64,000 bases of DNA, taken from NCBI GenBank assembly GCA_000611775.1, contig KK106982.1, positions 2,723,992 through 2,787,991 on the forward strand, given 5' to 3'. The stretch comes from Umbilicaria muhlenbergii (lineage: Eukaryota; Ascomycota; Lecanoromycetes; Umbilicariales; Umbilicariaceae). The notes below the pieces were generated by a model. That model saw only the letters and a program-made list of their open reading frames with translations, had not been told where the DNA came from and searched no databases. The position numbers and the translations under genes are program-made. This document shows positions 17,033 through 49,473 of this stretch, piece by piece. Position 1 is the first letter of the stretch. Each line of letters begins with the position of its first letter.

Positions 17033-17037
17033 CAGAA

Positions 17038-17492
17038 TGTGAGCATTCAATGTACAAAACTCATCAGGTGTTAGTTCAGAATAAGAAAAATTATGCTTAA
17101 CAACAGTGCAACCTTGCAAAGGTAACTTTCACTAATGAATCAACCTCATGAGAAAGCTCAGTCAATAGACATCACTTCTGACACTTCATGAAAGTGATTA
17201 AAGAAGTTAACATCATTGATGACACCTCATGAAGGTGTGATTCAGTAATGAACACCTCATGAAGACAGCTTCACTGAGGTGACTGCTTCATGAGATCTTT
17301 CTCAGGCAGGCTAACTTCAGAAGAGATATATTATGAGGTTAAAGCATGTTTCACTTTCTTTCTTAACAATAATTCTCTATCTACTAGCAATATCATACTA
17401 TTGTGAATCATCAACTATAAGCTTAAGTCACTATTGTCACATAGCTTCATAATTCCTTAGTTAAGATATTACCTCATGATAGTACGCTTACA
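17038..17492 (+). repeat. C 5' LTR
   Basis: 455 bp, with ends TGTGAGCATT...CGCTTACA. It matches the split 3' LTR over its full length. Confidence 0.93.
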
Positions 17493-20816: not shown

Positions 20817-21250
20817 TGTTACACCTCTCAGTAAATGGTACCTGAATGATATGCATAGCAGGCGTACATGTGGTACTGCTCATGATGCTCAGAGCATGAG
20901 CACCTCAAGCATCTGACTGCTCATGATGCTCAGGGCATGAGCACCTTGAGCACTCAACTGCTCATGATGCTCAGGGCATGAGCACCCTGAGCAGTAAGAT
21001 TACACACATAAAGCAGTACTGTCACACATGAGTCTTCTAAAGTACTATATAATCACAGGTAGATTCATAGTTAGGAGCTCATGCTCAACTCATATATTAA
21101 ATGCAATCTCATAGATTTATCACCTTCTAGCTTATTCAAGTCTACATGTGATCAGTAGTTCATTGAATCAAGCGCTGTGATTAGATGAACAATTGATATA
21201 GTTCATTAAATGATTATATTATCTCTGTCACTATGACATCACCTGTTACA
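20817..21250 (+). repeat. E 5' LTR with three 41-bp units
   Basis: 434 bp. Three tandem 41-bp units begin at 20877, 20918 and 20959, each starting TGCTCATGATGCTCAG and containing the inverted half CATGAGCA. Confidence 0.93.
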
Positions 21251-21379
21251 TTTTGAGCATCATCATTAAAATATCAGTCATGAAATGAACTGTGACTCAT
21301 GAGTCCCTCTAGAGGATGACAACTTTCAGTCATGACTCATCAGTCATTGAGAGTTCAGCATCATCAAGGATGAAGATCA

Positions 21380-22140
21380 AGATCTCATCATCAGACAAGT
21401 TCTTAAAAGAATGAAGAATGTTGAGTTCATTCTTCACTCAACTTGATATTTACATGCACCTCAATCACATCATGTTTAAGAAGGAAGTTGATAAGATGTT
21501 GTATACATCTTCTTATTTAAGGTTTGATGCTCTTAATTGATTTGAACTGACCCTCTGAGACTATATAAAAAATGAGAAGAAGGATCATGATGATGAGACA
21601 AATGAGATCTTCTTCAGTTTAAAGGAGTTCAAGAAGCAGATAAGAATCATGTTTAAAACTGTTAATCAAGAAAGAATCATGAAGTGAGAAATTTACAATA
21701 TTGTGCAAAAAGAAGCTGTCATGATGTATGCAGTCAACTTTCAGAGACATGCTGCATATATGAACTGAGATGACACTGCCTTAACTGCGCAGTATTACAA
21801 AAGCTTGAAGGACTTCATCAAAGATGAAATCTCTTGTTCAGAACAATCAAATACCTTAGTCAAGATGATTGAAAAGTCAGTTATCATTAACAACCGTGTG
21901 TATGAAAGATTCATGAAGAAAAGTCAGAAGAACTACATATCACTGAAGGTGAACAAGCCTCATGAGAGCACTCAGTATAACAATCAACCTTATTATGACT
22001 CTCAGCTGATGAAAATTGATGTGACCTTCCATAGAAATCAATTCCAGAGGGGGATCAAACAAGTATCAAAGAGTATCAGAGTTAAAGGAAATTGCTATAG
22101 CTGTGAAAAGTCAGGACATTTCACATGCAACTGTTGAATC
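21380..22140 (+). pseudogene. E gag remnant
   Basis: Retrotransposon gag-like segment. It ends in a perfect CX2CX4HX4C knuckle (CYSCEKSGHFTCNC) at about 22096-22137, just before a TGA. D has the same knuckle near 36083-36125 on the minus strand. Confidence 0.82.
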
Positions 22141-23029
22141 TCAATGAAAACCTTTTCACTCAAGAAGAAGACATATGCTGCTGCATTAAAAGAGTCAACA
22201 CTGAAGCAATCAGCTCAGCACAATGCTATGTCTTGAACAGCTTGTTATGATGACAGCTGCACAGTTCATCAGAGTGACAAAAACAGCTCTGAATGATTCT
22301 CACATCAATCAAAGAAAGCAAAAGAATATGCTGTAACCTCTTGCTGAGATCCTGTTGCAGACGTGGAAAAACATCAAGTCAGGTGAGAGGAATTCAGCTA
22401 AGAAGATGATTATGTTGACAGTGATGACATGATACCCTCATTCAGTGAGGAGGAAGACTTTATGAAGGTAACATCTTTTAAAGATTCAAGAGAACTCATG
22501 AAAGAAGACAACAACAAATGATTAACTACTCATGAAGAAAGGTGAATTCAAATGTACATTGAAATACTCAACACCCTCAGCAAAAAAGAAAAGTATGCAG
22601 AGTAAGTAACAGAGATAAAGAATCAAATCCTTTACATTATTTAAGACACATTTACGCAAAATCAAGATCATGAGGAGATCAATTATTAAGATATAATTAA
22701 GAAGACACCTTCAAAAGGTTCTCAGTTCATCATCAGAGAGGAATATGTTACCTTTGATGAAGCACACATCTCATGAGAACTTCATATGAAAGTATGAGAA
22801 CTTCAGAGTGAATACTTAAAAAGAGATTCAAATAAACATTCAGCTCAGAAAGTGAACCTGAAAGACTTTAAGTATGTAAGAAAGAACTTAAGTTTCTTCT
22901 CTTTTAGTTCAAAAAACTAGGAGGCTCTTCAGGTCAGAGGTCTTTGAAGATGCTTACTTTAAAGCCTTCAAGCAGTGAATGATGATGAGAGTTCACTGCT
23001 GCAGCACAGGAAGACATGAGCAACTTTCA

Positions 23030-26000
23030 TGTCTGAATTAAAGTCAATGATCAGCCAGCTCAACTGCTAATAGATAATGACTGTATAGGGAACTTTATGA
23101 ACTCAGGATTTACTGTGAAACATGTAATTCAAACACAGGTGAAGCAGAATCCCTTTAAACTTCAAGGGTTCAATGAGACCTTTATGAAACACAACAATGA
23201 ATGAGTAAACTGAGAGATGATTCCCACGCCTATGTGTTTAAGTCAACATTGGGAAAAAATCCAATTTGACATAATGAAGCAATCAGGAAGTGATATAGTC
23301 CTGAGAATATCTTAACTCTGAGCAGTCAATCCATTGATTGATTGAGCTGAAAATGAGATATACTTTGTTAAGAGTGATAATTTGAACAAGTTATATTCAG
23401 TCTTGAACTCACCTGAAGGTGTGAAGATCTTCACTATGTCAACAGAAGAAACACATGAGGAACTGAAGAATCCTGATGCAAAAATATTATGAAGCAGATG
23501 AGTTGAAGATGATCAAAACTCTGTTATCAAGTTATTTATCCCTAAAGAATACAAAGACTTCAAGGAATTGTTTATGACTGTAAAGGATCAGGACGCCTTG
23601 CCAAAACATTAAGAATAAAATCATGAAATCAAGATCATGAAAGGTTGCACATCAATGAAACAACTTATCTACTCATTGTCACCTCAGAAGTTAAACGCTT
23701 TATGAGAATATTTAAAGGAGAACTTATGAAAAGGATTTATATGAAAATCACAGTCTTCAGCTGAATATCTGATACTGTTCATACCAAAATCAGACAGTTC
23801 ACTCAGGTTGTGCATTGACTATTGAACATTAAACAACATCACTGTCAAGAACAGTTACCTGTTATCACTCATTTCAGAACTGCAGGATCAGTTTCAGGGA
23901 GCATAATGATTCATTAAGTTTAATATTCTGAGAGCCTTCAACCAGATTTGTATCAAGAAAGGAGATGAATGAAAAACTGTGTTCTGAACAAGATCAGAAC
24001 TTTATGAGTACTTGATAATGTCTTTCAGATTGACAAACACGTCAGCAACATTTCAGACTTTTATCAACAACATACTGCAGGAATATTTAAATCAGTTTGT
24101 GATTGTATACCTCAATGACATACTGATCTATTTCAAGACAAAGGAGCAGCATGTTCAGCATGTTCATAAAGTTCTACAAGCACTTCAGGATGCAGGTTTG
24201 CAGGTAAAGCCTGAGAAGAGCCTTTTTCATTTTAAGGAAGTACACTTTCTAAGCTTCATCATAACATCAGAAGGGTTACAGATGAACTCAGAAAAAATAT
24301 GATTCATGATTAAATGATCAGTATTAAAGAACATCAAGGAAGTACAGTTCTTCCTTGAGTTCACAAACTTCTATAAAAAGTTTATCAAAAAATATTCAAA
24401 AATCACATCACCTCTGATGAAGTTGATCAAGAAAGATCAGAAATTTGAGTGATCACTTGAAGCACAGAAAGCCTTCAATGAGTTGAAGAAGAAGTTCACT
24501 TCTCAATTAATTCTCATGAGTTTTAACCCTGAGAAACCTATTACGCTCAAGATGAACATGTCAGACAGAGTTATAAGAGCATGCATCAATCAATTAAATG
24601 ATCAGAAATGTCTGCGCCCAGTAGCTTTTTATTTAAGAAAGTTTATAAGTGTTGAAATGAGCTACAAGATACATGACAAAGAGCTGTTAATTATTGTCAA
24701 CACATTTAAGCAATGACATGTGTATCTGAAAGGACTTAAACATAAGGTTCAAGTATACTCAGATCATAAAAATCTGTTGTATTTCATGACAACAAAGGTC
24801 TTAAATCAAAGACAAGTATGTTGATTGAAAGAATTGTCACAGTACAATTTCAGAATTCATTATCAAAAAGGATCAGAGAATGTTAAAGTGAACACTCTCA
24901 GTCAATGAGCTGATTATTTACAAGATAAGCTGATCATCAGTCATGTTATTCTTCAGGAGGATGAGCAAGGGAACATGTCATTCAATAAACAGTTCAACCT
25001 CATCATGAGGATAAAGAATAACACTTTTGAGAATGAGATTCAAAAAGTGTTGAAGAATGATAAGTTAGCACAGCAGATTCTTCAGAATATTAAAAATCAT
25101 GAAAGCTTTAAAAAGGAGAAAAGCTTATTACTTTTTTAAGACTTAATTTATGTTCCTGTTAGCCTTCAATGGAAACTAACAGAGGAAAGTCATTTCAACA
25201 AGACACATGATCACCAGGGAATCAACAAAACAGTGAAATGACTCACAAGGACATATTACTTCTCACACATGAAAAAGAAAGTTGAAGAGATTATTCAGAA
25301 GTGTGACATCTGTCAAAGAAGTAAAGCAGATCAACATAAGTCATACAATCTACTTAAGTCATCAAAAACATCATCAAGATCATAAGCAAGTATCACATTA
25401 AACTTTGTAGTTAAATTACCAAAGTCAAAAGAACCTCTGATGAAAGCAGTTTATGATTTGATATTAATTATCACTGACAGACTTATGAAGTATGAATACT
25501 TCATACCTTATAATGAAGCATCATCAGCAGAAGAACTCACATATATGTTCTTAAGAATTATAGCAGTCAATCATGAACTGCCAGAAGAGATAATCTCTGA
25601 TAGAAATAAACTCTTCACCTTCAAGTTCTGAAAGTCATTAGTGAATCAGTTGAGGATTCATCATAAGTTATCAACATCATATCATCCTCAGATGAATGGA
25701 CAGACTGAATGATTTAATCAGATTATGAAACAGTACCTACAGTGTTACATTAATTATCAGCAAACTAATTGAGTAGAACTTCTACTGATAGCTCAGTTAA
25801 CATACAACTCAACAACAACAGAGACAACAGGAGTATCATCATTCTACATTAATTATGATTTCAACTCAGCTATGAATGAGGTCAGGGGACTAATAATGAT
25901 AACACAATGAGCAAGAGTACAAGTGAACCGCCTTAAGAACCTGCATGAAATGTTGCAAAAGAACATCAAATTCACCTCAGAAAGATCAATGATATATTAT

Positions 26001-26464
26001 AATAAAAAAGAGCTAAAGGACCTACTCTTAAAGAAGAGGATAAAGTATATCTTCTACATCACAATATCAAGACAAAATGACTTAACAATAAATTGAATCA
26101 CATGAAGTTGAGACTTTTTCAAATTGCAAAGACTAAGGGAAGCATCAACTATGAGCTTGAGCTTTCACTCACTATGTGAATACACTCAGTATTTCACATA
26201 TCACTACTTGAATCAGCAGACTTAAAAACATCAATACAAAAAAATTCACCAGAGATTGACCTGAAGAGTCAAGACACTGAGTTCAAGGTAGAGGAAATTT
26301 TAAATCAGCAAAACATAAATGATGAGTCACACTGTCTGATCAAATGAAAGGGATATGATAGTGAAGGAAACACATGAGAATCAGAAGAAAATCTTACTCA
26401 TTGTGTGACAAAACTGCATCAGTTTCATCAAAGAAACCTGCAAGAAGTCAGTTCACATCATTGA
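23030..26464 (+). pseudogene. E pol remnant ending in a chromodomain
   Basis: Protease near 23060 reads IDNDC, where D at the same place reads IDSGC. RT is at 23.7-24.3 kb with box YLNDILIY (24108-24131, first Asp lost). RNase H is at 24.4-24.9 kb. The integrase HHCC finger (CDICQR) is near 25.3 kb, with core SDRN near 25.6 kb and QMNGQTEXF near 25.7 kb (X marks a TGA). The clear C-terminal chromodomain (FKVEEIL...CLIKWKGYDSEGNTW) is at about 26280-26390. Pol stops at 26462-26464, 71 nt inside the tail of the antisense ORF. Confidence 0.9.
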
Positions 26465-26933
26465 AGCTGAAAGCCTCAGACGTGAGGAAGTTGAGAGAAG
26501 ACTTGTTAAAAGAATCAGCAGTCATAATAATCACATGTTCATTCACCTTCAGTTCCTTAATGTTTCAAAGTTCAGTACAGATTAAATTCAATTATTTCTT
26601 TTTCAGGAAAGTGATCTGTTTATGAAATCTCTCTTTCTTCACTCTTATCTTTCACTTTTGTGTCATGATGACATTCTTTTTCTTTTTCAGATGATGAATC
26701 TTCACACTCACCTTGTTGATCTCCTTCAGGGATATGAACAAGTCACAAGAGATGCTCAGCTGAATGCAGATGTCACACTTATTGTAATCATCTGACATCT
26801 TGCACTCCTTGTCATCAGTTAAACAGTAATTACACATTTGCATGACAATCCTCCTGTTCTCAGTGATCAAATCAGTCAGATGAGAATGATGAGAAGTAAA
26901 TGACTTCTTCTTTCTGATATCAGATGAAGGCAT
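26394..26933 (-). pseudogene. Antisense Zn2Cys6-like ORF of element E
   Basis: A 540-nt frame on the strand opposite to pol, between the chromodomain and the 3' LTR. Residues 34-63 carry six Cys spaced CX2CX6CX8CX2CX6C (codons 26834 down to 26745), which is the Zn(II)2Cys6 spacing of fungal GAL4-type regulators. A basic stretch (RKKK) lies before it, and a Lys/Glu/Leu-rich, probably coiled-coil segment follows at about 75-125. One TGA interrupts the frame about two thirds along, at the same codon as in D. The ATG is 47 nt from the 3' LTR, so the LTR would have to supply its promoter. Unlike typical members, few basic residues lie between the first Cys pairs, so DNA binding is an inference. 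Confidence 0.72.
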
Positions 26934-26980
26934 AGAGAAGGTTGAGTTTTCAAGGATGAAAATGTTGAGGAAGGAGTTAA

Positions 26981-27414
26981 TGTTACACCTCTCAGTAAAC
27001 AGTACCTGAATGATATGCATAGCAGGCGTACATGTGATACTGCTCATGATGTTTAAAGCATGAGTATCTTGAGCATCTGATTACTCATGATGCTCAGAGC
27101 ATGAGCACCTTGAGCACTCAACTGCTCATGATGCTCAGGGCATGAGCACCTTGAGCAGTAAAATTACACACATAAAGCAGTACTGTCACACATGAGTCTT
27201 TTAAAGTATTATATAATCACAGGTAAATTCATAGTTAAGAGCTCATGCTCAACTCATGTATTAAATGCAATCTCATAAGTTTATCACCTTCTAGCCTATT
27301 CAAGTCTACATGTGATCAGTAGTTCATTGAACCAAGCATCATGATTAGATGAATGATTGATATAGTTCATTGAACAATTATATTATCTCTGTCATTATGA
27401 CATCACCTGTTACA
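26981..27414 (+). repeat. E 3' LTR
   Basis: 434-bp partner of 20817-21250. The 41-bp units begin at 27041, 27082 and 27123. Confidence 0.93.
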
Positions 27415-27559: not shown

Positions 27560-28890
27560 TTGAGATTATTAAGAAGCATCATGATGAGTCACTTGCAGAT
27601 CACCTCATGACAGAGAAAATCTTTACTTTAATACATGCAAAGTAATACTGACTGAACATGTGAAAGCAAATTCAGAAATACTGCAATTCTTGTCTTGTCT
27701 GTCAGGGAGTCAGAGTCATTCATGAAAGATAATTTAAATTATTACAGCTCATACCTGTCCTGAAGGAACCCTGAGAGGTACTCACTTTAAACTTCATAAC
27801 TGACCTTTCAGAGAGTCATGCTTATGAGGGTGTGTATGATGTCATACTGATGATGATGTGTAAATTCTCAAAGATGACACATTATATTTCAGCCAGAAAG
27901 GATTGAACTGCTGATTAACTCATGAAGGCCTTTGTGAGAGAGATTGTTAAACTGCATGAAGTCACTCAAGCTTTAATTTCAGATCATGAATCTGTTTTTA
28001 CCTCATGACTCTGAGTCAACTTGATGTTCATGTTGAAGATTGATCATCAGTTGAGCACTGCCTTTCATTCACAAACTGATGAGTAGACTGAATAACAGAA
28101 TAACATGCTGAAACAGTACCTGTGAAGTTATGTTAATTATCAACAGGACAATTGAGCCTCACTTTTAGCATTAACTGAGTTCATGTACAACATGAGTCTA
28201 CACTCTTCTACTGAAAAGGCATCATTTGAGGTCATTTATGACTTCATACTTAAATCAGATATGCTCACTGTGAAGGAACTCATGAAGTACTCTGCAGTTA
28301 AGGGAATTATCACTGAAGCTGAGCAGCTTGTGAAGCATCTTCATAAAATTTAAATAAAAGTCTACAGAGCTCTTGTGAAGTCTCAAGAGTATCAAGCTAA
28401 GCACTACAATCAGTCTCACCTTGATGTGATTTATAAAGTCAGACAGTTGATCTGACTAAAGGTCAAGAACATAACCCTGAAGTGACTTTCACAGAAGCTG
28501 AATTGACAGTGTTATGAATCTTTTCAGATTATAAAGAAGATTGAGAATGTTGCTTATCAGCTGAAACTACTGAAGAAACTTCACATTCATGATGTGTTTC
28601 ATGTTAGCCTGCTTCATGATCATAAACTGCAGGCAGGTGAGGATACATCAGAGCTTGAATCACTTCACCTCATGAAGAACTCAGCTGAAAGAGAGTGAGA
28701 AGTTGAGATTATAACAACCTCATGAATTGTGATCAGCTCTGAGGATAAACCTGTTCTACAATAAAACATTATGTGAAAGGAATCCTCAGAGATTACTTAA
28801 AAGCTTGTGAATAACATCTGCAACTTCAAGAAATTAATTAAGAAGTTTCATGAGGACTTTCCTGAGGCTTCATGAGTCATAATCAATGTT
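27560..28890 (+). pseudogene. C integrase and chromodomain remnant
   Basis: Continuation of C pol after E. Integrase core motifs include YDVILM near 27.84 kb, LISDHESVF near 27.98 kb and TAFHSQTDEQTEQ near 28.07 kb. The C-terminal segment is followed by a chromodomain-like stretch at ~28.68-28.86 kb (WEVEII ... WKESSEITW ... LIKKFHEDFP). TGA codons replace several Trp and Arg. Confidence 0.83.
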
Positions 28891-29670: not shown

Positions 29671-29921
29671 TTACAGATCACTTCATGATCTTGCTCATAA
29701 TCAGTGAGTCAGACAAGCTGCTGTGAAATGACATAATCATGAAGCTGAGCCTCTCTGTGAAGGGCTACCTCATGAAAGGTTTAATTGTGAGGGGCTGAGT
29801 CAGAGGCCTGCATGAACAGAGGAAATAAATGAGAATTGCAGATGATTTGCCTGAGAGTGTTGATGATGTGATTAATGTGAAGCATGATGAGCTGTATCAC
29901 TGTTAATGAAAAGGCACCATG

Positions 29922-29996
29922 AAGGCAAGCATCATGAAGGCAAGCATCATGAAGGCAAGCATCATGAAGGCAAGCATCATGAAGACAAGCATCATG
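29922..29996. repeat. Five 15-bp minisatellite units
   Basis: Four copies of AAGGCAAGCATCATG and a fifth with one G-to-A change (AAGACAAGCATCATG), inside the 3' non-pol region of C. Confidence 0.9.
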
Positions 29997-30450
29997 AGAG
30001 CAAAACATCACAAGAAGCATTATAAGAACCATGATCATGAACTTACCTGATGAGAGGTGAAAGATTGAAGTTGTGAAAGTTACTGACAGTGAAAACTCTG
30101 ACCTTATGATCTGCACGGGTCATTCACAAGACTTGACAAAGTGAATCTGAATGACCTCATGAACAGCTGAACAGGCTCACAAATGAGCAACAATCATCAT
30201 GAACACTGAGTCAGTGTATAAATCAATCATAACTTCATAAACATCTTGTGAAGGGAGACTCTTTTTCTCACTGAGTTTCAATGAGCTCCACAACATATTT
30301 TTTTTTATAATTTTAAATTTTTTTTTTCTGATCTACAGGGTCATTTTTTTAACTGTTACTGATGCATTGTGAAGCACTTCTCAGTGAAGGCTTGCAACTG
30401 TGAACATCATCATACTCATGAGGGCATGAGCCTTTGAAGGAGGGGAGCAA

Positions 30451-30839
30451 TGTGAGCATTCAATGTACAGAACTCATCAGGTGCTAGTTCAGAATAAGAA
30501 AAGTTATACTTAACAACAGTGCAGCCTTGTGAAAGTAACTTTCACTAGTGAATCAATCTCATGAGGGAGCTCAGTCAATAAACATCACTCTCAGCACTTC
30601 ATGAAAGTGATTAAAGAAGTTAACATCATTGATGACACCTCATAAAGGTGTGATTCAGTAATGAACACCTCATGAAGACAGCTTCACTGAGGTGACTGCT
30701 TCATGAGACCTTCCTCAGACAGACTAACTTCAGAAGAGATATATTATAAGGTCAGAGTGTGTCTCACTTTCTTTCTTAACAATAATTCTCTACCTACTAG
30801 CAATATCATACTATTGTGAACCACCAACTATAAGCTTAA
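30451..30839 (+). repeat. C 3' LTR, first part
   Basis: Matches 17038-17426 and is cut at CTTAA by D. The rest is at 37347-37412. Confidence 0.93.
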
Positions 30840-31232
30840 TGTAATGGGTGATGTCATAATGACAGGGATAATACAATCATTTAATGAACTATATCAATGT
30901 TCATCTGACCACAGCGCTTGATTCAATGAACTACTGATCACATGTAGACTTGAATAAGCTAGAAGGTAGTAGATCTATGAGATTGCATTTAATACATGAG
31001 TTGAGCATGAGCTCCTAATTATGAATCTACCTGTGATTATATAATACTTTAGAAGACTCATGTGTGCCTGTACTGCTTTATGTGTGTAATCTTACTGCTC
31101 ATGAGTGCTCATGCTCTGAGCATCATGAGTGATCAGGTGCTCAAGGTGCTCATGCTCTGAACATCATGAGCAGTATCACATGTACACCTGCTATGTGTAT
31201 CATTCAGGTATCATTTAGTGAGAGGTGTAACA
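30840..31232 (-). repeat. D left (3') LTR
   Basis: 393 bp. Two 41-bp palindromic units lie at about 31094-31172. Confidence 0.93.
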
Positions 31233-31279
31233 TTAGCTCCCCCCTCAATGTTTTCATCCTTAAAAACTCAACCTTCCTC

Positions 31280-31819
31280 ATGCCTTCATTTGATATCAGA
31301 AAGAAGAAGTCATTTACTTCTCATTGTTTTCACCTGGCTGATTTGATTGCTGAGAACAGGAGGATTGTCATGTGAACATGTAATCACTGCTTAACTGATG
31401 ACAAGAAGTGCAAGATGTTGAATGATTATGATAAATGTGACATCTGCATTTGACTGAGCATCTCCTGTGACTTGTTCATATCTCTGAAGGAGATTAACAG
31501 AGTGAGTGTGAAGATTCATCACTTGAAAAAGGAAAAGGATGTCATCATGACACAAAAGTGAAAGATGAGGGTGAAGAAAGAAAGACTTCACAAACAAATC
31601 ACTTTCCTGAGAAAGAAACAGTCAGATTTAATTCATACTGAACTTCAGAACATTGAGGAACTGAAGGCAGATGAGCATGTGATTATTACAGCTGCTGATT
31701 CTTTTAACAAGTCTCTCCTCAACTTCCTCACATCTGAGGCTTTCAGACTCAGTGATGTGAACTGGTTTTCAGCAGGTTTCTTTGACAGAATTGATGCAGT
31801 TTCATCACACAATGAGTAA
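31280..31819 (+). pseudogene. Antisense Zn2Cys6-like ORF of element D
   Basis: A 540-nt frame, exactly the same length as in E and colinear without indels, antisense to D pol. Six Cys at residues 34-63 (codons 31379-31468) keep CX2CX6CX8CX2CX6C. The second half (31565-31819) is open and ends in DAVSSHNE. Three TGA codons interrupt it. At two of them E has Gln (CAA/CAG), the pair expected if an ancestral Arg CGA/CGG was hit on opposite strands. The coiled-coil-like middle is Lys/Glu/Leu rich. The ATG is 47 nt from the D 3' LTR. No cellular homologue is named here; the assignment rests on cysteine spacing. Confidence 0.72.
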
Positions 31820-31849
31820 GATTTTCTTCTGATTCTCATGTGTTTCCTT

Positions 31850-34800
31850 CACTATCATATCTCTTTCATTTAATCAGATAGTGTGACTCATCATTTATGC
31901 TTTGCTGATTTAAGATTTCCTTTACCTCAAACTCAGCATCTTAACTCTTCAGGTCAATCTCTGATGAATTTTCTTATACTGATGTTTTCAGATCTGCTGA
32001 TTTGAGTAGTGATACATGAAATACTGAGTGTATTTGCATAGTGAGTGAAAGTTCAAGCTCATAGTTGACACTTCCCTTAGTCTTTGCAATTTGAAAAGGT
32101 CTCAACTTCATGTGGTTTAATTTATTGCTAAGTCATTTAGTCTTGATATTGTGACATAAAAGGTATACTTTATCCTCCTCTTTGAGAGTAGATCTCTTAT
32201 CTCTCTTTTTATTATAATATACTGCTGATCTTTCTGAGGCAAATTTGATGTCTCTTTGTAGCATTTCATGTAAGTTCTTAAGGTGATTCACTTGTATCCT
32301 TGCTCTCTGTGCTATCATTACTAGTCCCCTGGCCTCATTCATAGTCAGGTTGAAACTGTAGTTGATGTAAAATGATGATACTTCAGTTGTTTCTGTTACT
32401 GCTGAGTTGTAAATTAACTGAGCTAATGGTAAGAGTTCTACTCAATTAGTTTGTTGATAATTAACATAACATCATAAGTACTGTTTCATAGTTTGATTTA
32501 ATCATTCTGTCTGACCGTTCATCTGAGGATGATATGACATTGATAACTTGTGATGTATTCTCAACTGGTTCACTAATGATTTTCAGAACTTAAAGGTAAA
32601 GAGTTTATCTCTGTCAGAGATTATCTCTTCTGACAGTTCATGATTGACTGTTATAATTTTTAAAAACATATATGCAAGTTCTTCTGCTGATGATGCTTTG
32701 TTATAAGGTATGAAGTATCTGTACTTCATGAGTTTATCAGTGATAATTAATATTGAGTCATAAACTGCTTTCATCAGGGGTTCTTTCAACTTTGATAACT
32801 TAATCACAAAGTTTAATGTGATGCTTGCTCATGGTCTTGATGATGTCCTTGATGACTTAAGTAAACTGTATGACTTATGTCAATCTGCTTTGCTTCTTCA
32901 GCAGATGTCACATTTTTAAATGATCTCCTCAACCTTCTTCTTTATATGTGAGAAGTAGTATGTCCTTGTGAGTCATTCTATTGTTTTGTTAATTTCTTGA
33001 TGACTGTGTGTCTTATTGAAATGACTCTCTTCTATTAGTTTTCATTGAAGATTAACAGGAACATAAATCAAGCCTTGAAAAAATAATAAGCTTTTCTCCT
33101 TTTTGAAGCTTTCATGATCTTTAATATTCTGAAGAACTTGCTGTGCTAACTTATCATTCTTCAATGCTTTTTGAATCTCATTTTTAAAAACATCATTCTT
33201 TATCTGTATGATAAGGTTGAACTGTCTGTTGAAAGACATGTTCCCTTGCTTATTCTTTCAGAGGATAACATGACTGATGATCAGCTTATCTTGTAAGTAA
33301 TCAGCTTGTTGACTGAGAGTGTTCACTTTGACATTCTCTGATCCTTTTTGATAATGAATTTTAAAATTGTACTGCAACAATTCTTCTGACCAATGTACCT
33401 GTCTTCAATTTAAGACTTTTGTTGTCATGAAATATAATAGATTTTTATGATCTGAGTATATCTGAACCTCATGTTTAAGTCCTTTCAAATACACATGTCA
33501 TTGCTTGAATGCATTGACAATAGTTAACAGCTCTTTGTCATGTATTTCATAGTTCATTTCAGTGCTTGAGAACTTTCTTAAATAAAAAGCTACTGACTGT
33601 AAATGTCCCTGATCATCTAATTGATTGATGCATGCTTTTATAGCTTCATCTGATGTGTTCATCTTGAGCGTAATAGGTTTCTCAGGGTTAAAACTCATGA
33701 GAATCAGTTGAGAAGTGAATCTCTTCTTCAATTCATCAAAGGCTTTCTGTGCTTCAGGTGATCACTTGAATTTCTGATCTTTCTTAGTCAACTCTGTTAG
33801 AGGTGATGTGATCTTTGAATATTTTTTGATAAACTTTCTATAGAAGTTCACAAACTCAAGGAAGGACTGTACTTCCTTGACATTCTTTAATACTGATCAT
33901 TCAATCACAGATCATATCTTCTCAGGATTCATTCATAACTTTTTTAATGTTACAATGAAACCTAGAAAGTGTACTTCTTTGAAATGAAAAAGACTTTTCT
34001 CAGACTTTACCTGTAGTCCTGCATCTTGAAGTGCCTGTAAGATTTTACAGACATGCTGAACATGCTGCTTCTTCAATTTGAAGTAGATCAGTATGTTGTT
34101 GAGATAAACAACTACAAACTGATTCAAATATTCTCACAGCACATTATTAATAAAAGCTTGAAAAGTTACTGACGCGTTTGTCAATCTGAAAGGCATTACC
34201 AGGTACTCATAGAGTTCAGACCTTGTTCAGAACACAGTTTTTCATTCATCTTCTTCTTTGATACAGATCTGGTTGAAGGCTCCTGAAATATTAAATTTAG
34301 TGAATCATTGTGCTCCCTGAAATTGATCCTGCAATTCTGAAATGAGCAGCAAAGGGTAACTGTTCTTGATGATAATGTTGTTCAATGCTCAATAGTCAAT
34401 GCACAATCTGAGTGAACCATCTGATTTTGGTATGAATAGTATTGAATATTCAGCTGAAGATTGTGATTCTCATATGAATCCTTTTCATAAATTCTCCTTT
34501 AAGTACTCTCATAAAGTTTTTAACTTCTGAGGTGACAATGAGTAGATAGGTTACTTCATTGACATGCAACCTTTCATGATCTTAATTTCATGATTTTAAT
34601 CTTAATGTTTTAGCAAGACGTCCTGATCCTTTACAGCTGTAAACAATTCCTTGAAGTCTTTGTATTCTTTAGGGATAAATAACTTGATAATGAGGTCTTG
34701 ATCATCATCAACTCACCTGCTTTATAGTACCTTTGCATCAGGATTCTTCAGTTCCTCATGTGTTTCTTTCACTGACATAGTGAAGATCTTCACACCTTCA

Positions 34801-35300
34801 GGTGAGTTCAGGACTGAATATAACTTGTTAAGATTATCACCCTTAATGAAGTATATCTCATTTTCAGCTCAATTGATCATTGAATTGACTGCTCAGAGTC
34901 ATGATATCCTCAGGACTATATCACTTCCTGGTTGCTTCATTATGTTGAATTGAATCTTTTCCCAATGTTGACCTAAATGCATGAGCATAGGGACTGTCTC
35001 TCAGTTTACTCATTCATTGTTATGTTTCATAAAGGTCTCATTGAACCCTTGAAGTTTAAAGGGATTTTGCTTCACCTGCATCTGAATTATGTGTTTTGCA
35101 GTAAATTCTGAGTTCATGAAGTTCCCTGTGCAGCCACTGTCTATTAGCAGTCAGGCTGACTGATCATTGACTTTGACTCAGACATGAAAGTTACTCATGT
35201 CTTCTTGTGCTGCAGTGATGAACTCTCATCATTGCTCACTGTCTGAAGACTTTGAAGTAAGTGTCTCTGAGGACCTCTGACCTGAAGGGCCTTCTAGTTT
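31850..35300 (-). pseudogene. D pol remnant
   Basis: Right to left: protease with intact IDSGC near 35.13-35.15 kb; RT 34.6-33.9 kb with box YLNNILIY near 34.09-34.11 kb (both catalytic Asp changed to Asn); RNase H 33.75-33.3 kb; integrase finger and core 33.0-32.4 kb (SDRDKLF near 32.6 kb). The chromodomain portion near 31.85-31.95 kb is inferred from alignment with E. TGA stops are scattered through the frame. Confidence 0.87.
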
Positions 35301-36069
35301 TTTGAACTAGAAGGGGAGAAGCTTAAGTTCTTCTCTACATACTTAAAGTCTTTCAGATTCACTCTCTGAGCTGAATGTTTGTTCAGATCTCTTTTGAAGT
35401 ATTCACTTTGAAGTTCTCATACTTTCATATGAAGTTCTCATGAGATGTGTGCTTCATCAGAGGTAACATATTCCCCTCTGATGATGAACTGAGAACCTTT
35501 TGAAGATGTCTTCTTAATTATATCTTAATAATTGATGTCCTCATGATTCTGATTCTGTGCAAATGCATCTCAAATAATGTAAAGGATCTGATTCTTCACT
35601 TTTATTATTCATTCTGCATACTTCTCTTTCTTGCTGAGGGCATTGAGTATTTCAGTATATGTTCAAATTCATCTTTCTTCATGAGTAGTTAATCATTTGT
35701 TGTTGTCTTCTTTCATGAATTCTTCTGAACCTTCAGAAGATGCTACCTTCACAAAGTCTTCCTCTTCACTGAATGAGGGTATCATATCATCACTGTCAAC
35801 ATAATTATCTTTCTGACTGAATTCCTCTCTCCTGACTTGGTGTTTTTCTGCATCTATCACAGGATCTCAGTGAGAGGTTGCAGCATATTCTTTTGCTTTC
35901 TTTGATTGATGTAAGAATCATTCAGAGTCATCTTTGTCACTCTGATGAATTGTGCAGCTGTCATCATAACAAGCTGTTCAAGACATAGTGTTGTGCTGAA
36001 CTGATTGTTTCAGTGCTGACTTCTTTAACACAGCAGCATATGTCTTCTTCTTTAATGAAAAGGCTTTCA

Positions 36070-36700
36070 TTGAGATTCAACAATTACATGTGAAATGTCC
36101 TGACTTTTCACAGTTATAACAATTTTCTTTACCCTTGATGCTCTTTGATAACTGCTTGATTCCTCTCTGAAATTGATTCTTTCAGAAAGCTGTATCAATT
36201 TTCATTGACTGAGGGCTGTAATAGGGTTGATTGTTATACTGAGTGCTTTCATGAGGCTTGTTCACCTTTGGTGGTACATAATTCTTCTGGCTTTTTTCCA
36301 TAAATCTTTTGTATGCGCAGTTGTCAATGATGACTGACTTTTCAATCATCTTGACTAAGGTGCTTGATCACTCTGATCAGAAGATCTCATCTTTGATGAA
36401 GTTCTTTAAGCTCTTATAATACTGCGTGATTAAGGCAGTGTCATCTCAATTCATATACATGATGTGTCTCTGAAAGTTGACTGCATACATCATGACAGCT
36501 CCTTTCTGCACAATATTATAAATTTCACACTTCACGGTTCTTTCTTGATTAATAATTTCAAACACAATTCTTATCTGTTTCTTGAACTTCTTTAAATTGA
36601 AGAAGATTTTGTTCATTTCATCTTCATGATCCTTCTTCTCATTTTTCATGTAGTCTCAGAGGGTCAGCTTAAATCAATTGAGAACATCAGATGCATATAA
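36070..36700 (-). pseudogene. D gag remnant
   Basis: An open stretch at 36446-36649 matches the E gag region (NIVQK, MMYAVNFQRH). The zinc knuckle CX2CX4HX4C lies at about 36083-36125. Further N-terminal gag sequence continues right towards the 5' LTR. Confidence 0.8.
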
Positions 36701-36948
36701 CATCTTGTCAGCTTTCTTCTTGAACATAATGTGATTAAGGTGAATGTAAGTATCAAGCTGAGTGAGGAACAGACTCAACATCCTTTACTTTTTTAAGAAC
36801 TTGTTTAATGATGAGATCTTGATCTTCATTCCTGATGATGCTGAACTCTCAATGACTGATGAGTCACAGCTGAAGGTTGTCATTTTCTTAAGAAACTCAT
36901 GAGTCACAGTTTGTTTCACAACTGATATCCTGATGATGATGCTCAAAG

Positions 36949-37341
36949 TGTAATGAGTGGTGTCGTAGTGACGGAGATAATACAATCATTCAATGAATTA
37001 TATCAATGTTCATCTGATCACAGCGCTTGGTTCAATGAACTACTGATCACATGTAGACTTGAATAAGCTAGAAGGTAGTAGATTTATGAGATTGCATTTG
37101 ATACATGAGTTGAGCACAAGCTCCTAACTATGAATCTACCTGTGATTATATAGTACTTTAGGAGACTCATGTGTGCTTGTACTGCTCTACATGTGTAACC
37201 TTACTGCTCATGAGTGCTCATGCTCTGAGCATCATGAGTGATCAGGTGCTCAAGGTGCTCATGCTTTGAGCATCATGAGCAGTATCACATGTACGCCTGC
37301 TACATGTACCATTCAGGTATCATTTAGCGAGAGGTGTAACA
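36949..37341 (-). repeat. D right (5') LTR
   Basis: 393-bp partner of 30840-31232. Confidence 0.93.
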
Positions 37342-37346
37342 CTTAA

Positions 37347-37412
37347 GTCACTATTGTCACATAACTTCATAATTCCTTAGTTAAGATATTACCTCACGGT
37401 AGTACACTTACA
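37347..37412 (+). repeat. C 3' LTR, last 66 bp
   Basis: Completes 30451-30839 to exactly 455 bp, ends CACTTACA and is followed by the TSD CAGGA. Confidence 0.93.
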
Positions 37413-44973: not shown

Positions 44974-45240
44974 TGTTGCATGTGGAAAATCGTTCGTCCG
45001 CCCCGCCCTGCAGCAGCCAATATATGCCCGTAGCAGGCATCATGCCTACATGCGCTCGGCCCGACTATAGGCGCTCGGTCAATGTAGGCGAGCACCGAGA
45101 AAGCCGATATGGGGGGTTATTTAATGTGCCCTGATTTCTACGAAGACTGCTTGCTTCTACACGTTCATTTATATCAATTGGAGCGGTATTTAGCTAGATA
45201 TAATACATCTATTTGGCCTCTATATCGCCCCATTGCAACA
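44974..45240 (+). repeat. Copia LTR, middle copy
   Basis: 267 bp, plus orientation, directly followed by a primer-binding site. Left flank is CTAGA. Confidence 0.92.
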
Positions 45241-45256
45241 GGTTATGAGCCCGGTC
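45241..45256 (+). promoter_or_regulatory. Primer-binding site, half initiator-tRNA type
   Basis: GGTTATGAGCCCGGTC abuts the LTR. Its complement reads GGGCTCATAACC, the anticodon arm (CAT) of initiator tRNA-Met, as in Drosophila copia and Ty5, which use a half-tRNA primer. Confidence 0.8.
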
Positions 45257-45521
45257 AGTGCATAACTACCGCCTGTTGTCGTTGCTTTGCCCTACTACCC
45301 TACTCTGCCCTAACCCTCGCCGACGAACCCTCGACCCGATTAGGCAATCGAAAGCCTACCACGCAAGCGGACGATATAAACGTCCATTTCCAGACGATAA
45401 AACATCGGTTTATCGCTCGAACCAAAGAGGTCGAAAAACTTCGAAAATCCACCCCCCCCACCTTCGAACCGTTATCCACGCCGCCGCAGACGCAGGAGCA
45501 GTCATACGGACTTGAAAGAGC

Positions 45522-46390
45522 ATGGAATACAATGGACTGAAGGGCACGACGGCCCTAAAGCTCAACGAGAGCAATTATATGGCATGGGCCGAGTCCGTGC
45601 AGGCATATTTGGTGGCACGAGACCACTGGGACGTCGTTGAAGGGGCGTACGCCAAGCCAGAAAAGGTGTTAGTGGACGAGAAAGAGACGCAGGGATCACA
45701 AGAGGAGACCAAGAAGTGGGTAAGGGCGGACAGGAAAGCCTGGTATGATATAAAATCATTTTGCAACCAGGCCGACGCAACCTTCTATAAACCGGAGACT
45801 GCCAAGGAGCTTTGGGACCGCCTAAAGGAAATGAAGAAGCCTATAGGAACCACCTACTACCTGTCCCAAATCAGAGCTTTCTCCAATTATAAGCAAGGAC
45901 CGAAGGAGACGGCGGAGCAAGTTTTATACACCTTGCGGAAAATCCAAGCCGAAATTCAGGTTTTAAGTCCTGATACTCCTATATACGATAACATGCTTCG
46001 AGAAGTCTTCCTTGAAGCTTTATGAGAGGACCCATATGGTCCAATGATCTTTTGAATTTGAAATGAGGTGGTAGAGTCGTCTATTGCCAATGTCCTACGC
46101 CAACTAAAGGAGAAGGAAATGGAAGACGCCTCGAATAAGGCGGCCAAGAACGCCACCGCCAATGCCGCCAAGGCAGGAAGCCAGACAGGGAGCCAGCAGT
46201 CATCCAGCAAGGACGACAAGGACAGCAAACGGGGGAAAACCTGCTTTCGGTGCCAGAAAAAGGGACATTTCGCCGCGAACTGCTACGCTACCCATACGAA
46301 AGACGGGGAAGAATTACCCCCGAACGGTGTTAAACCACCCCCGAAATCGAAGGCCAATGCAAGGCAAGCCTCCGAAAGTTCAGGGGGGTC
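45522..46390 (+). pseudogene. Copia gag, truncated plus-strand copy
   Basis: Starts at ATG 45522 (MEYNGLKGTTALKLNESNYM) and matches the minus copy almost exactly to codon ~165. A cluster of eight substitutions at 46014-46064 then creates three TGA codons. The zinc knuckle CX2CX4HX4C (CFRCQKKGHFAANC) at about 46242-46283 is intact. The copy ends at the inverted junction at 46390/46391, about 110 nt after the knuckle. Confidence 0.88.
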
Positions 46391-48925
46391 GCGCCTCCGA
46401 GCAAGCTCCTGAGGCGTCAAGACCAGTGTGTCGTCGTCGTCAATGGTGTCGGGGTCGATAGGGTTTTCCCAGCCATCCTTATAAAGGCTTGGATTTGCCA
46501 ACAAACTTCCTCCTTTCTCTTTCTCAAGGAAGAGAACATGGGTATGGATTTCTACCAGGTTTTTCGAAGGATTCCAGACCCGAAATTGCTGGTTGCTCTT
46601 GCAATAACCAACGAAAACCCCCTTATAAGAGGTGTCTTCCAATTTCGCCCGTTTTTCCTTTGGTATGTGGCAATGGACGACGCACCCAAATGGTCATAGA
46701 TGTTCAACGGAGGGTTTAGACCCTGTATATAATTCGTATGGGGTCTTTGCCCCATGGTTACCCCCCAATGGGAGTTGATTTCGTAGGTAGGCGGCGGTTT
46801 TGGCGGCTTCACCCCAAAATTCTGGTGGCAATTGGGAGTCATAAAGCATGCTCCGAATGGCCTCTGTAATCGTACGGTTTAGGCGTTCAGCGTAACCGTT
46901 TTGTTCCGGTGTATATGGGGTGGTAAATTCGAATTCTACCCCCTTAGGCGTCCAAATTCTGGCCAATTTGCCATATTCTCCGCCATTATCACATTGAAAG
47001 ACCAGGAGCTTCTTTCCGGTTTCTTTCTCTGCCTTTAGCTTCCATATTTCAAACGTTGCATAAAGATCCGTCCTCGCCTGGAGTAGGTAAACATCACCAT
47101 AACGGGAATATTCGTCTGAAAATGTAGCGAAATATCGGTTTCCACCTAGACTATCAATCTGGTATGGTCCTCAAATGTCTGAAAAGACTCGTTCCAAAGG
47201 CTTTTGAGCTCTTGATATTGAAGCCTTGTTCTGTACCTGTATCATTTTACTGTGTAGACATGCCGAGCAGTCCTTTTCCGCTTCGGTAGGGCGTAAATCG
47301 CGGGTTATACCCTTCACACATGATTTTAGGCGTTGCAGGCGATATGCCCCTGCATGGCCGAACCTCCGATGCCACTTCCAGTACTCGGTTTGTGACTGGT
47401 TCGAAATTTTGGAAGTTTCCGGGGTAATTGGCCCCAAAACCTCCCCCGGGGCAGGGGCTCCATATGAGCCACCCGCCTGCTCTGGACCTGCTCCCACTGG
47501 CTCCGGAGTGAGCCCTAATATAGGCGGTGCTCCCCCTGCTGTCGCTGGAGCGGCCAGGCCGTTCGTCGATTTTTGGTAGGTCTGGACCTTAAAGGCCACT
47601 TTCCCGTTTGTCGATTTCAGTATATAAACTGAACCGTGCTGGCTTGCCGTGGCAATGACGTTTCCTTGGCGCTTAAAAAGCACTCGTTCGAGTCCAAATT
47701 CCACGGTTATCCCATTCTTACTGGCTGCTCCGATCGACAGCAAATTCCCGTCCAATTCTGGGACGTAAAGGACGTCCTTTAGGGTGAGTATTTTGCCCCC
47801 AAAAGAAACTTCCGCCTTGCCAATTCCCGTCGCCTTTATCGACTTTCCATTGGCCAAGCAAACGTCCGTAGAGTAATCCTGAATTTCGGTGAAAAAGCTC
47901 CTATCCGGGGTCATATGATGACTTGCTCCGGAGTCGACTATCCAGCAGCCGGGAGGTAATTTCAGGCTGGCTATGGCTTCCAAGGCCGTCGCTCTCCACG
48001 CCCTGCCGTCGTCGCTGGGTTCGTGGTCCTGGTTGTTCGATTTTTTCGAAGTTTCTGACCCCCCTGAACTTTCGGAGGCTTGCCTTGCATTGGCCTTCGA
48101 TTTCGGGGGTGGTTTAACACCGTTCGGGGGTAATTCTTCCCCGTCTTTCGTATGGGTAGCGTAGCAATTCACGGCGAAATGACCCTTTTTCTGGCACCAA
48201 AAGCAGGTTTTCCCGCGTTTGCTGTCCTTGTCGTCCTTGCTGGATGACTGCTGGCTCCCTGTCTGGCTTCCTGCCTTGGCGGCATTGGCGGTGGCGTTCT
48301 TGGCCGCCTTATTCGAGGCGTCTTCCATTTCCTTCTCCTTTAGTTGGCGTAGGACATTGGCAATAGACGACTCTACCACCTCATTTCGAATTCGAAAGAC
48401 CATTGGGCCGTATGGGTCCTCTCTTAAAGATCCAAGGAAGACTTCTCGAAGCATGTTATCGTATATAGGAGTATCAGGACTTAAAACCTGAATTTCGGCT
48501 TGGATTTTCCGCAAGGCGTATAAAACTTGCTCCGCCGTCTCCTTCGGTCCTTGCTTATAATTGGAGAAAGCTCTGATTTGGGACAGGTAGTAGGTGGTTC
48601 CTATAGGCTTCTTCATTTCCTTTAGGCGGTCCCAAAGCTCCTTGGCAGTCTCCGGTTTATAGAAGGTTGCGTCGGCCTGGTTGCAAAATGATTTTATATC
48701 ATACCAGGCTTTCCTGTCCGCCCTTACCCACTTCTTGGTCTCCTCTTGTGATCCCTGCGTCTCTTTCTCGTCCACTAACACCTTTTCTGGCTTGGCGTAC
48801 GCCCCTTCAACGACGTCCCAGTGGTCTCGTGCCACCAAATATGCCTGCACGGACTCGGCCCATGCCATATAATTGCTCTCGTTGAGCTTTAGGGCCGTCG
48901 TGCCCTTCAGTCCATTGTATTCCAT
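46391..48925 (-). pseudogene. Copia gag-protease-integrase, RT lost
   Basis: One frame from ATG 48925: gag; knuckle CFWCQKKGHFAVNC (~48164-48205); protease IVDSGASHHM (~47915-47945); GAG-pre-integrase with WHRRFGHA and CSAC (~47380-47260); then a TGA at 47171-47173. The same frame goes on without shift through integrase with DDE motifs (FSDEY near 47.11 kb, QCDNGGEYG near 46.99 kb, TPEQNGYAERLN near 46.90 kb). A second TGA lies at 46694-46696, followed by KGVFVGY near 46.6 kb. It stops at the junction at 46391, before RT. Only two nonsense codons, so recent. No RT means it cannot move by itself. Confidence 0.9.
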
Positions 48926-49190
48926 GCTCTTTCAAGTCCGTATGACTGCTCCTGCGTCTGCGGCGGCGTGGATAACGGTTCGAAGGTAGGGGGTGTGGAT
49001 TTTTGAAGTTTTTTGACCTCTTTGGTTCGAGCGATAAACCGATGTTTTATCGTCTGGAAATGGACGTTTATATCGTCCGCTTGCGTGGTAGGCTTTCGAT
49101 TGCCTAATCGGGTCGAGGGTTCGTCGGCGAGGGTTAGGGCAGAGTAGGGTAGTAGGGCAAAGCAACGACAACAGGCGGTAGTTATGCACT

Positions 49191-49206
49191 GACCGGGCTC
49201 ATAACC
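49191..49206 (-). promoter_or_regulatory. Primer-binding site next to right LTR
   Basis: Reverse complement of the site at 45241-45256, abutting the LTR at 49207, as expected for a minus-strand copia 5' end. Confidence 0.8.
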
Positions 49207-49473
49207 TGTTGCAATGGGGCGATATAGAGGCCAAATAGATGTATTATATCTAGCTAAATACCGCTCCAATTGATATAAATGAACGTGTAGAAGCAAGCAG
49301 TCTTCGTAGAAATCAGGGCACATTAAATAACCCCCCATATCGGCTTTCTCGGTGCTCGCCTACATTGACCGAGCGCCTATAGTCGGGCCGAGCGCATGTA
49401 GGCATGATGCCTGCTACGGGCATATATTGGCTGCTGCAGGGCGGGGCGGACGAACGATTTTCCACATGCAACA
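49207..49473 (-). repeat. Copia LTR, right outer (5') copy
   Basis: 267 bp, minus orientation, followed by the TSD GCACT at 49474-49478. Confidence 0.92.

Follow-up and report, generated by a model that had tools for sequence, protein, structure and literature searches.

The window, i.e., the whole 64,000-nucleotide stretch of Umbilicaria muhlenbergii DNA analysed here (contig KK106982.1), holds two inverted copies of one Ty3/gypsy element, E on the forward strand and D on the reverse strand. In each copy, a frame runs against gag-pol between the pol end and the 3' LTR. The features were placed as follows.

20817 to 27414, forward strand: element E, a degraded Ty3/gypsy LTR retrotransposon, from self-alignment, its boundaries and a match to RVT_1
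20817 to 21250 and 26981 to 27414: LTRs of E, 434 bp, 92% identical to each other in the self-alignment
26394 to 26933, reverse strand: antisense accessory frame of E, 179 codons plus stop, with four internal stops
26745 to 26834, reverse strand: six-cysteine motif CX2CX6CX8CX2CX6C of E, residues 34-63
26520 to 26729, reverse strand: predicted long helix of E, residues 69-138 in the numbering of the relative P0005, from the AlphaFold2 model of P0005
26394 to 26464: 71 nt over which the antisense frame and the pol end of E overlap tail to tail
26967 to 26976, forward strand: purine-rich stretch between the antisense ATG and the 3' LTR, read from the sequence and possibly acting as a polypurine tract
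26981 to 27414, forward strand: 3' LTR of E, presumed source of an antisense transcript
30840 to 37341, reverse strand: element D, a second degraded copy, with its 3' LTR at 30840-31232 and its 5' LTR at 36949-37341
31280 to 31819, forward strand: antisense accessory frame of D, 540 nt, with three internal stops
31379 to 31468, forward strand: six-cysteine motif of D, residues 34-63
31484 to 31693, forward strand: predicted long helix of D, residues 69-138, from alignment to P0005

The host element and its antisense frame

Element E is flanked by CTCCT/CCCCT, which resembles a target-site duplication, and element D has LTRs of 393 bp and a 5-bp target-site duplication (CTTAA on the forward strand). 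Pfam identified RVT_1 in E at 23988-24302 (61.5 bits). The pol tail of L062, a copy related to E, scored 60.2 bits against Chromo and 59.3 bits against a Tf2-1-like SH3 domain, and the chromodomain was assigned to E by alignment to this pol tail only. Judged from its reverse transcriptase and C-terminal chromodomain, the host element is a chromodomain-bearing Ty3/gypsy retrotransposon. At E 0.01, Pfam matched nothing in two other pieces of the window.

Several further repeats were observed in the window. Element D was inserted into a repeat (30449-37412), of which an uninterrupted copy at 17036-17492 represents the empty site. A short stretch between E and D (28032-28192) resembled integrase sequence from D and from related copies assigned below to family B, and is probably the remnant of another element. 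By eye, a 15-nt unit of the CATGAAGGCAAGCAT type forms a short tandem repeat beside the elements at 29917-29996. Elsewhere, an inverted 1.4-kb pair (44974-46390 and 48057-49473) was 98.7% identical and far less diverged than the gypsy copies.

The initial annotation described a 540-nt open reading frame antisense to pol in both E and D, without indels between the two. The position, the length and the absence of indels were confirmed; the frame is not open, with four internal stops in E and three in D. The exact spacing CX2CX6CX8CX2CX6C was present in both frames as described, and these were its only two matches in the six frames of the window. In 40 simulated windows, the exact spacing occurred 0.0 times per window and the general GAL4-type spacing 0.05 times. 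The reported tail-to-tail overlap with pol in E was reproduced at 71 nt, with the pol stop codon at 26462-26464. The antisense ATG had been placed 47 nt inside the 3' LTR; it lies instead 47 nt from the LTR, towards the interior of the element, with positions 26934-26980 in between.

Conservation of the frame in the genome and in outside relatives

We searched the genome with one relative as the query and obtained at least 151 matches (150 scored of 182 candidates). Families were assigned by identity together with a reading of example copies. E and D belong to family A; family B consists of L061, L062, L063, L064 and L068, family C of L065-L067, and family D of L090 and L091. L089 is a near-intact chimera whose front resembles family A and whose back resembles family B, and carries one stop before its C-terminal end; this copy (L089:74-1833) is canonical in orientation, and its helix is longer. 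The antisense frame was thus found in at least four diverged subfamilies of the genome, down to 28% identity. Relative to E, antisense protein identity was 70-74% for two family-A copies, 46% for L089, 33-46% for family B, 33-34% for family C and 28-29% for family D. Over the same loci, the last 150 residues of pol were 65-82% identical and the preceding 66 residues 36-69%, indicating that pol is not uniformly slower than the antisense protein. The six cysteine positions aligned across families A-D and the chimera, and the losses in the copies that we read were mostly to tyrosine, a transition. Scoring of 40 integrase-tail copies among 186 candidates placed the antisense frame downstream on the opposite strand in 39; opposite strands were also found at all 12 loci tested, which covered families A-D and the chimera. 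The element carries the antisense gene stably, and most copies have it.

Decay of family A was examined in 46 unique own-genome copies from L001-L060, with identical rows dropped. The differences within LTR pairs were transitions without exception (34/34 in E and 29/29 in D). Within the antisense frame, 75 of the 77 differences between E and D were transitions, and they were distributed 25/20/32 over the codon positions (p 0.08). None of the 46 copies had an indel relative to D, and each carried one to six stops. The six cysteines were kept in 46, 46, 44, 44, 45 and 46 copies. The G of the cysteine codons was mutated in 0, 2, 1, 0, 2 and 0 copies vs 0-18 copies for 16 other TGY Gs (one-sided p 0.052). 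Transversion columns among the 46 copies, at 5/4/5 over the codon positions, gave no signal of selection. The initial annotation had noted that the cysteines persisted despite hypermutation. Since the LTR pairs decayed through transitions only and cysteine codons were barely better kept than other TGY codons, their survival in E and D carries little weight, and a constraint argued from these two copies alone is unsupported. Repeat-induced point mutation has been described in a lichen fungus, according to the available part of one report (PMC12542154).

Selection was therefore assessed in less mutated copies. L061 and L062, compared over 142 stop-free codons, yielded an NG86 dN of 0.062, a dS of 0.340 and an omega of 0.184 (bootstrap 2.5-97.5%: 0.089-0.365). 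The omega of L089 was 0.31 against each of these two copies. Shifted frames on the same strand gave 0.89-1.73. The mirror frame on the opposite strand gave 0.21-0.36, a low value because wobble positions face each other, and every opposite-strand frame contained stops (3, 3 and 8 in L061; 1, 2 and 5 in L062). Third positions held 27 of the 47 differences between L061 and L062 (p 0.0006), and 48 of 102 and 59 of 131 differences in the two L089 pairs (p 0.003 and 0.004, respectively). Indels between E and L063 of family B were multiples of three in 3/3 cases in the antisense frame compared with 3/11 in the LTR (p 0.055). The comparison of E with family C (L065-L067) showed two neighbouring indels, 4 nt and 1 nt long, that disrupt the frame singly and preserve it only in combination. 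Between-family transversions by codon position numbered 30/20/32 for L001 of family A vs L061, which is the right direction and weak, and 47/48/57 for the comparison with L065 of family C.

The pair with an omega of 0.18 consists of rearranged copies with an inverted LTR, so selection may have acted at the level of the element or of the host. In three copies (L061:2905-4109, L064:1740-2631 and L062:2029-3640), the gene front directly abuts an LTR that points the same way as the gene, and the accessory gene is stop-free in all three. L061 was 99.8% identical to L064 over 4555 bp, and the junction of LTR and gene differed between L061 and L062. The LTR and gene front of the rearranged copies were CpG-rich and the pol tail CpG-poor. 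These copies may be nested insertions, products of autointegration or copies used by the host.

Three protein searches returned 4, 53 and 69 proteins, 70 of them distinct. A pattern scan that allowed tyrosine matched the six-position spacing in 23 of the 70, comprising 19 with all six cysteines and four with one tyrosine. The other 47 had no spacing match, and many of them are gene calls that start inside or downstream of the motif; P0070 showed, by eye, a shifted cysteine spacing. P0054, the hypothetical protein FRX48_07166 of Lasallia pustulata, matched L062 with 69% identity across 99% of the query and had six cysteines in the same spacing; it was compared at the protein level and carries the UniRef label Zn(2)-C6 fungal-type domain. 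Lasallia, like the present organism, belongs to the Lecanoromycetes and is lichen-forming. P0015 continues into a region alignable to the antisense of pol in L061-L063, and P0001, P0007, P0008 and P0011 start with a stretch that matches, by eye, the antisense LTR side of E; the arrangement is therefore probably present outside this genome. Viral contigs gave no match in one search. In another search, L092 was the sole match; the frame surrounding it resembled a ParB-type phage protein by eye, and the match was taken as chance.

The initial annotation had made its proposal depend on the conservation of the frame in less mutated copies, on purifying selection and on the alignment of the cysteines in other family members. 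All three were found: the frame persists, omega was 0.18-0.31 in three pairs, and the cysteines align in diverged subfamilies and in relatives. Because of the diverged copies, the outside relatives and omega values of 0.18 and 0.31, together with the fixed position, the antisense frame is almost certainly a protein-coding accessory gene under purifying selection. This selection acted before the window copies were destroyed by transition-type hypermutation.

The encoded protein and its six-cysteine motif

The encoded protein has approximately 140-190 residues. In five intact relatives, the net charge was +5 to +7 in the N-terminus, which contains a K/R run, -3 to +2 in the motif and -3 to -7 in the C-terminus, which also contains tryptophan and phenylalanine. 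AlphaFold2 modelling of P0005 with 36 relatives (mean pLDDT 69.9) predicted one confident helix at residues 69-138, with 10-residue means of 94-98 over residues 71-130 and 89 for residues 131-140. The coil-like stretch that had been noted after the motif is borne out by this helix. The motif itself was not resolved, with 10-residue means of 45-52 over residues 31-60. The length of the helix varies in frame, as relatives have a 7-residue insert and repeated EEINKVS units, and L062 has an 11-residue insert.

Zn(2)-Cys(6) proteins show the spacing CX2CX6CX5-12CX2CX6-8C. The window copies fit this pattern, as do the 19 fully cysteine-bearing relatives among the 23 spacing matches in the 70 proteins scanned; the GAL4-type spacing first seen in E and D thus recurs in relatives and diverged subfamilies. 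Membership in Pfam Zn_clus (PF00172) was not borne out. With a gathering score of 21 bits, the best values were below the cut-off (L061, 14.0 bits; P0054, 13.8 bits; L062, 12.9 bits), and no Zn_clus match was obtained for the window copies and the other scanned proteins (for P0011, among the best 25 of 37 families). Host Zn_clus domains show a basic CRxRKxKC between the second and third cysteines. This signature is absent from family A; the corresponding stretch is LTGGKE-like in relatives of that family and VTGGRE-like in L061, L062 and P0054.

We compared the antisense protein with host Zn_clus domains using hhalign. The first run aligned the second half of the motif only (probability 7.9%), and the second run placed the six cysteines in register (E 0.0048, probability 7.4%). 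A profile of 20 host Zn_clus domains found GAL4 and its kin in the PDB; searches of the PDB with the antisense protein returned nothing relevant, with best E values of 0.42 and 0.063. Matches to NCBIfam were weak and far under the cut-offs, and a weak match of P0054 to phrog_95 'integrase' in PHROGs had an E value of 0.002; both were taken as chance of the coil type.

The antisense protein of E and D thus shares the number and spacing of its cysteines with GAL4-type proteins, including their register in one profile comparison, whereas it falls below the Pfam cut-off, lacks the basic signature in family A, is very small and is borne by an element. A zinc-binding fold is judged fairly likely. 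A zinc cluster is favoured by the spacing and by the UniRef label; the absence of the basic signature argues against DNA contact of the ordinary GAL4 type.

Possible roles of the antisense protein

We propose that the element carries an accessory antisense gene whose product is a zinc-cluster-like, helix-bearing small regulator of the element itself, and we give this whole explanation a probability of about 0.5. An antisense promoter within the 3' LTR would produce a transcript, the six cysteines of the encoded protein would fold around zinc, and the long helix would mediate dimerisation. The protein would then enter the nucleus and regulate the element, most likely through LTR-driven transcription. 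It would most likely be a small dimeric nuclear regulator; the regulatory mechanism as such is put forward tentatively, at slightly less than an even chance. An antisense TATAAA-like stretch in L089 was considered as a promoter; by eye, it is not kept in E or D, and it is not claimed here.

The main rival to this regulator accepts that the protein is made and assigns it a zinc fold that does not bind DNA, with a part in assembly, in nuclear import of the pre-integration complex or in nucleic-acid chaperoning. The scores below the Zn_clus cut-off and the lack of a basic stretch between the second and third cysteines in family A agree with such a factor, and a role like that of retroviral accessory proteins has been proposed for plant antisense ORFs in the available part of the source (PMC7264820). 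However, outside family A the first half of the motif is of the CRRC type and more basic (L061, L062 and P0054), and separate antisense expression would suit regulation better than it would suit a component of the particle. We regard this factor as possible, at well below even odds. If instead the antisense RNA itself mattered, through double-stranded RNA or silencing of pol, the frame would be incidental. The 71-nt overlap with pol fits such a role, and antisense RNA has been discussed for other elements (PMC7264820, in part). The coding signal already disfavours it: low omega values of 0.18-0.31 were confined to the antisense frame and its mirror, indels kept the frame, stop-free relatives occur in other sources, and the frame is kept at 28-74% identity within the genome. 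An effect of the RNA only is therefore very improbable.

Alternatively, the gene may derive from a host Zn(2)Cys6 factor that the element captured, or the host may have adopted some of the copies. Consistent with this are the stop-free genes joined to an LTR of their own orientation in L061/L064 and L062, the CpG-rich LTR and 5' half of the gene beside a CpG-poor pol tail, and the Zn(2)-C6 label of the Lasallia relative. However, the differing junctions of L061 and L062 look like the outcome of separate rearrangements, short fragments may escape hypermutation, and the near-intact L089 has the canonical orientation. Capture or host use is accordingly unlikely, though less so than an effect of the RNA. 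Chance, or a mutational artefact in which TGY cysteine codons are seldom mutated and the frame is meaningless, would agree with the weak excess of cysteine retention in family A (p 0.052) and with the lack of a codon-position signal within that family. For the family as a whole, this reading is already refuted by the frame, spacing and protein sequence kept in diverged families and in other organisms.

To our knowledge, no function has been established for the antisense accessory genes of LTR retrotransposons. Zhao et al. reportedly described brtn in 2011 as an antisense gene of Boty-like retrotransposons. In the available excerpts, brtn is an additional antisense gene of these fungal elements (PMC8365987, PMC4227169, PMC5987419). 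Like E and D, Boty is a fungal LTR element whose pol carries a chromodomain (PMC4227169) and which has an extra antisense gene; the excerpts on brtn do not mention a zinc cluster, and the two genes were compared by description only. Plant elements carry antisense ORFs as well, namely Grande gene23, RIRE2, Retand ORF4 and PvRetro13 ORF2, which, like the gene of E and D, are antisense, lie between pol and the 3' LTR and occur in most copies (PMC7264820, in part). The Grande protein is nuclear and its gene has its own promoter, according to the same excerpt (PMC7264820). The excerpt names a domain for two antisense accessory genes only, SMC and transposase 28, and describes no six-cysteine motif, in a comparison likewise made by description only (PMC7264820). 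A claim that an antisense gene at the position between pol and the 3' LTR is new thus fails, as plant elements and Boty have one (PMC7264820, PMC8365987; both in part). For a zinc-cluster antisense gene, no report was found among the matches listed in the literature searched.

A further parallel comes from retroviruses. The HTLV-1 gene HBZ is transcribed in antisense from the 3' LTR side and encodes a bZIP protein. The gene of E and D would resemble it in antisense position and in the compact architecture of a dimer-forming regulator. It differs in having a zinc-cluster-like motif with a helix in place of a bZIP, the hosts are unrelated, and the comparison is one of architecture only. The HTLV 3' LTR contains an antisense promoter, according to the available part of one source (PMC7264820). 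In its most far-reaching form, our proposal would describe a fungal lineage of chromodomain retrotransposons with its own antisense LTR regulator, GAL4-type-like in its zinc cluster and coiled coil, i.e., a zinc-cluster counterpart of HBZ, whose age would have allowed it to diverge into at least four subfamilies within one genome; at a few loci, the gene would stand in sense orientation behind an LTR and stay intact while the element decays. We consider this extended form rather doubtful.

The architecture is recognisable, selection is measurable and intact relatives exist; therefore, the function of the gene is testable by ordinary biochemistry. If regulation of the element's own LTR is true, antisense regulators of the retroviral style arose in fungal elements too. 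Some short fungal proteins that are unnamed or labelled Zn(2)-C6 would then be element genes mistaken for host factors, and such mislabelled genes would affect the counts of transcription factors in fungal genomes.
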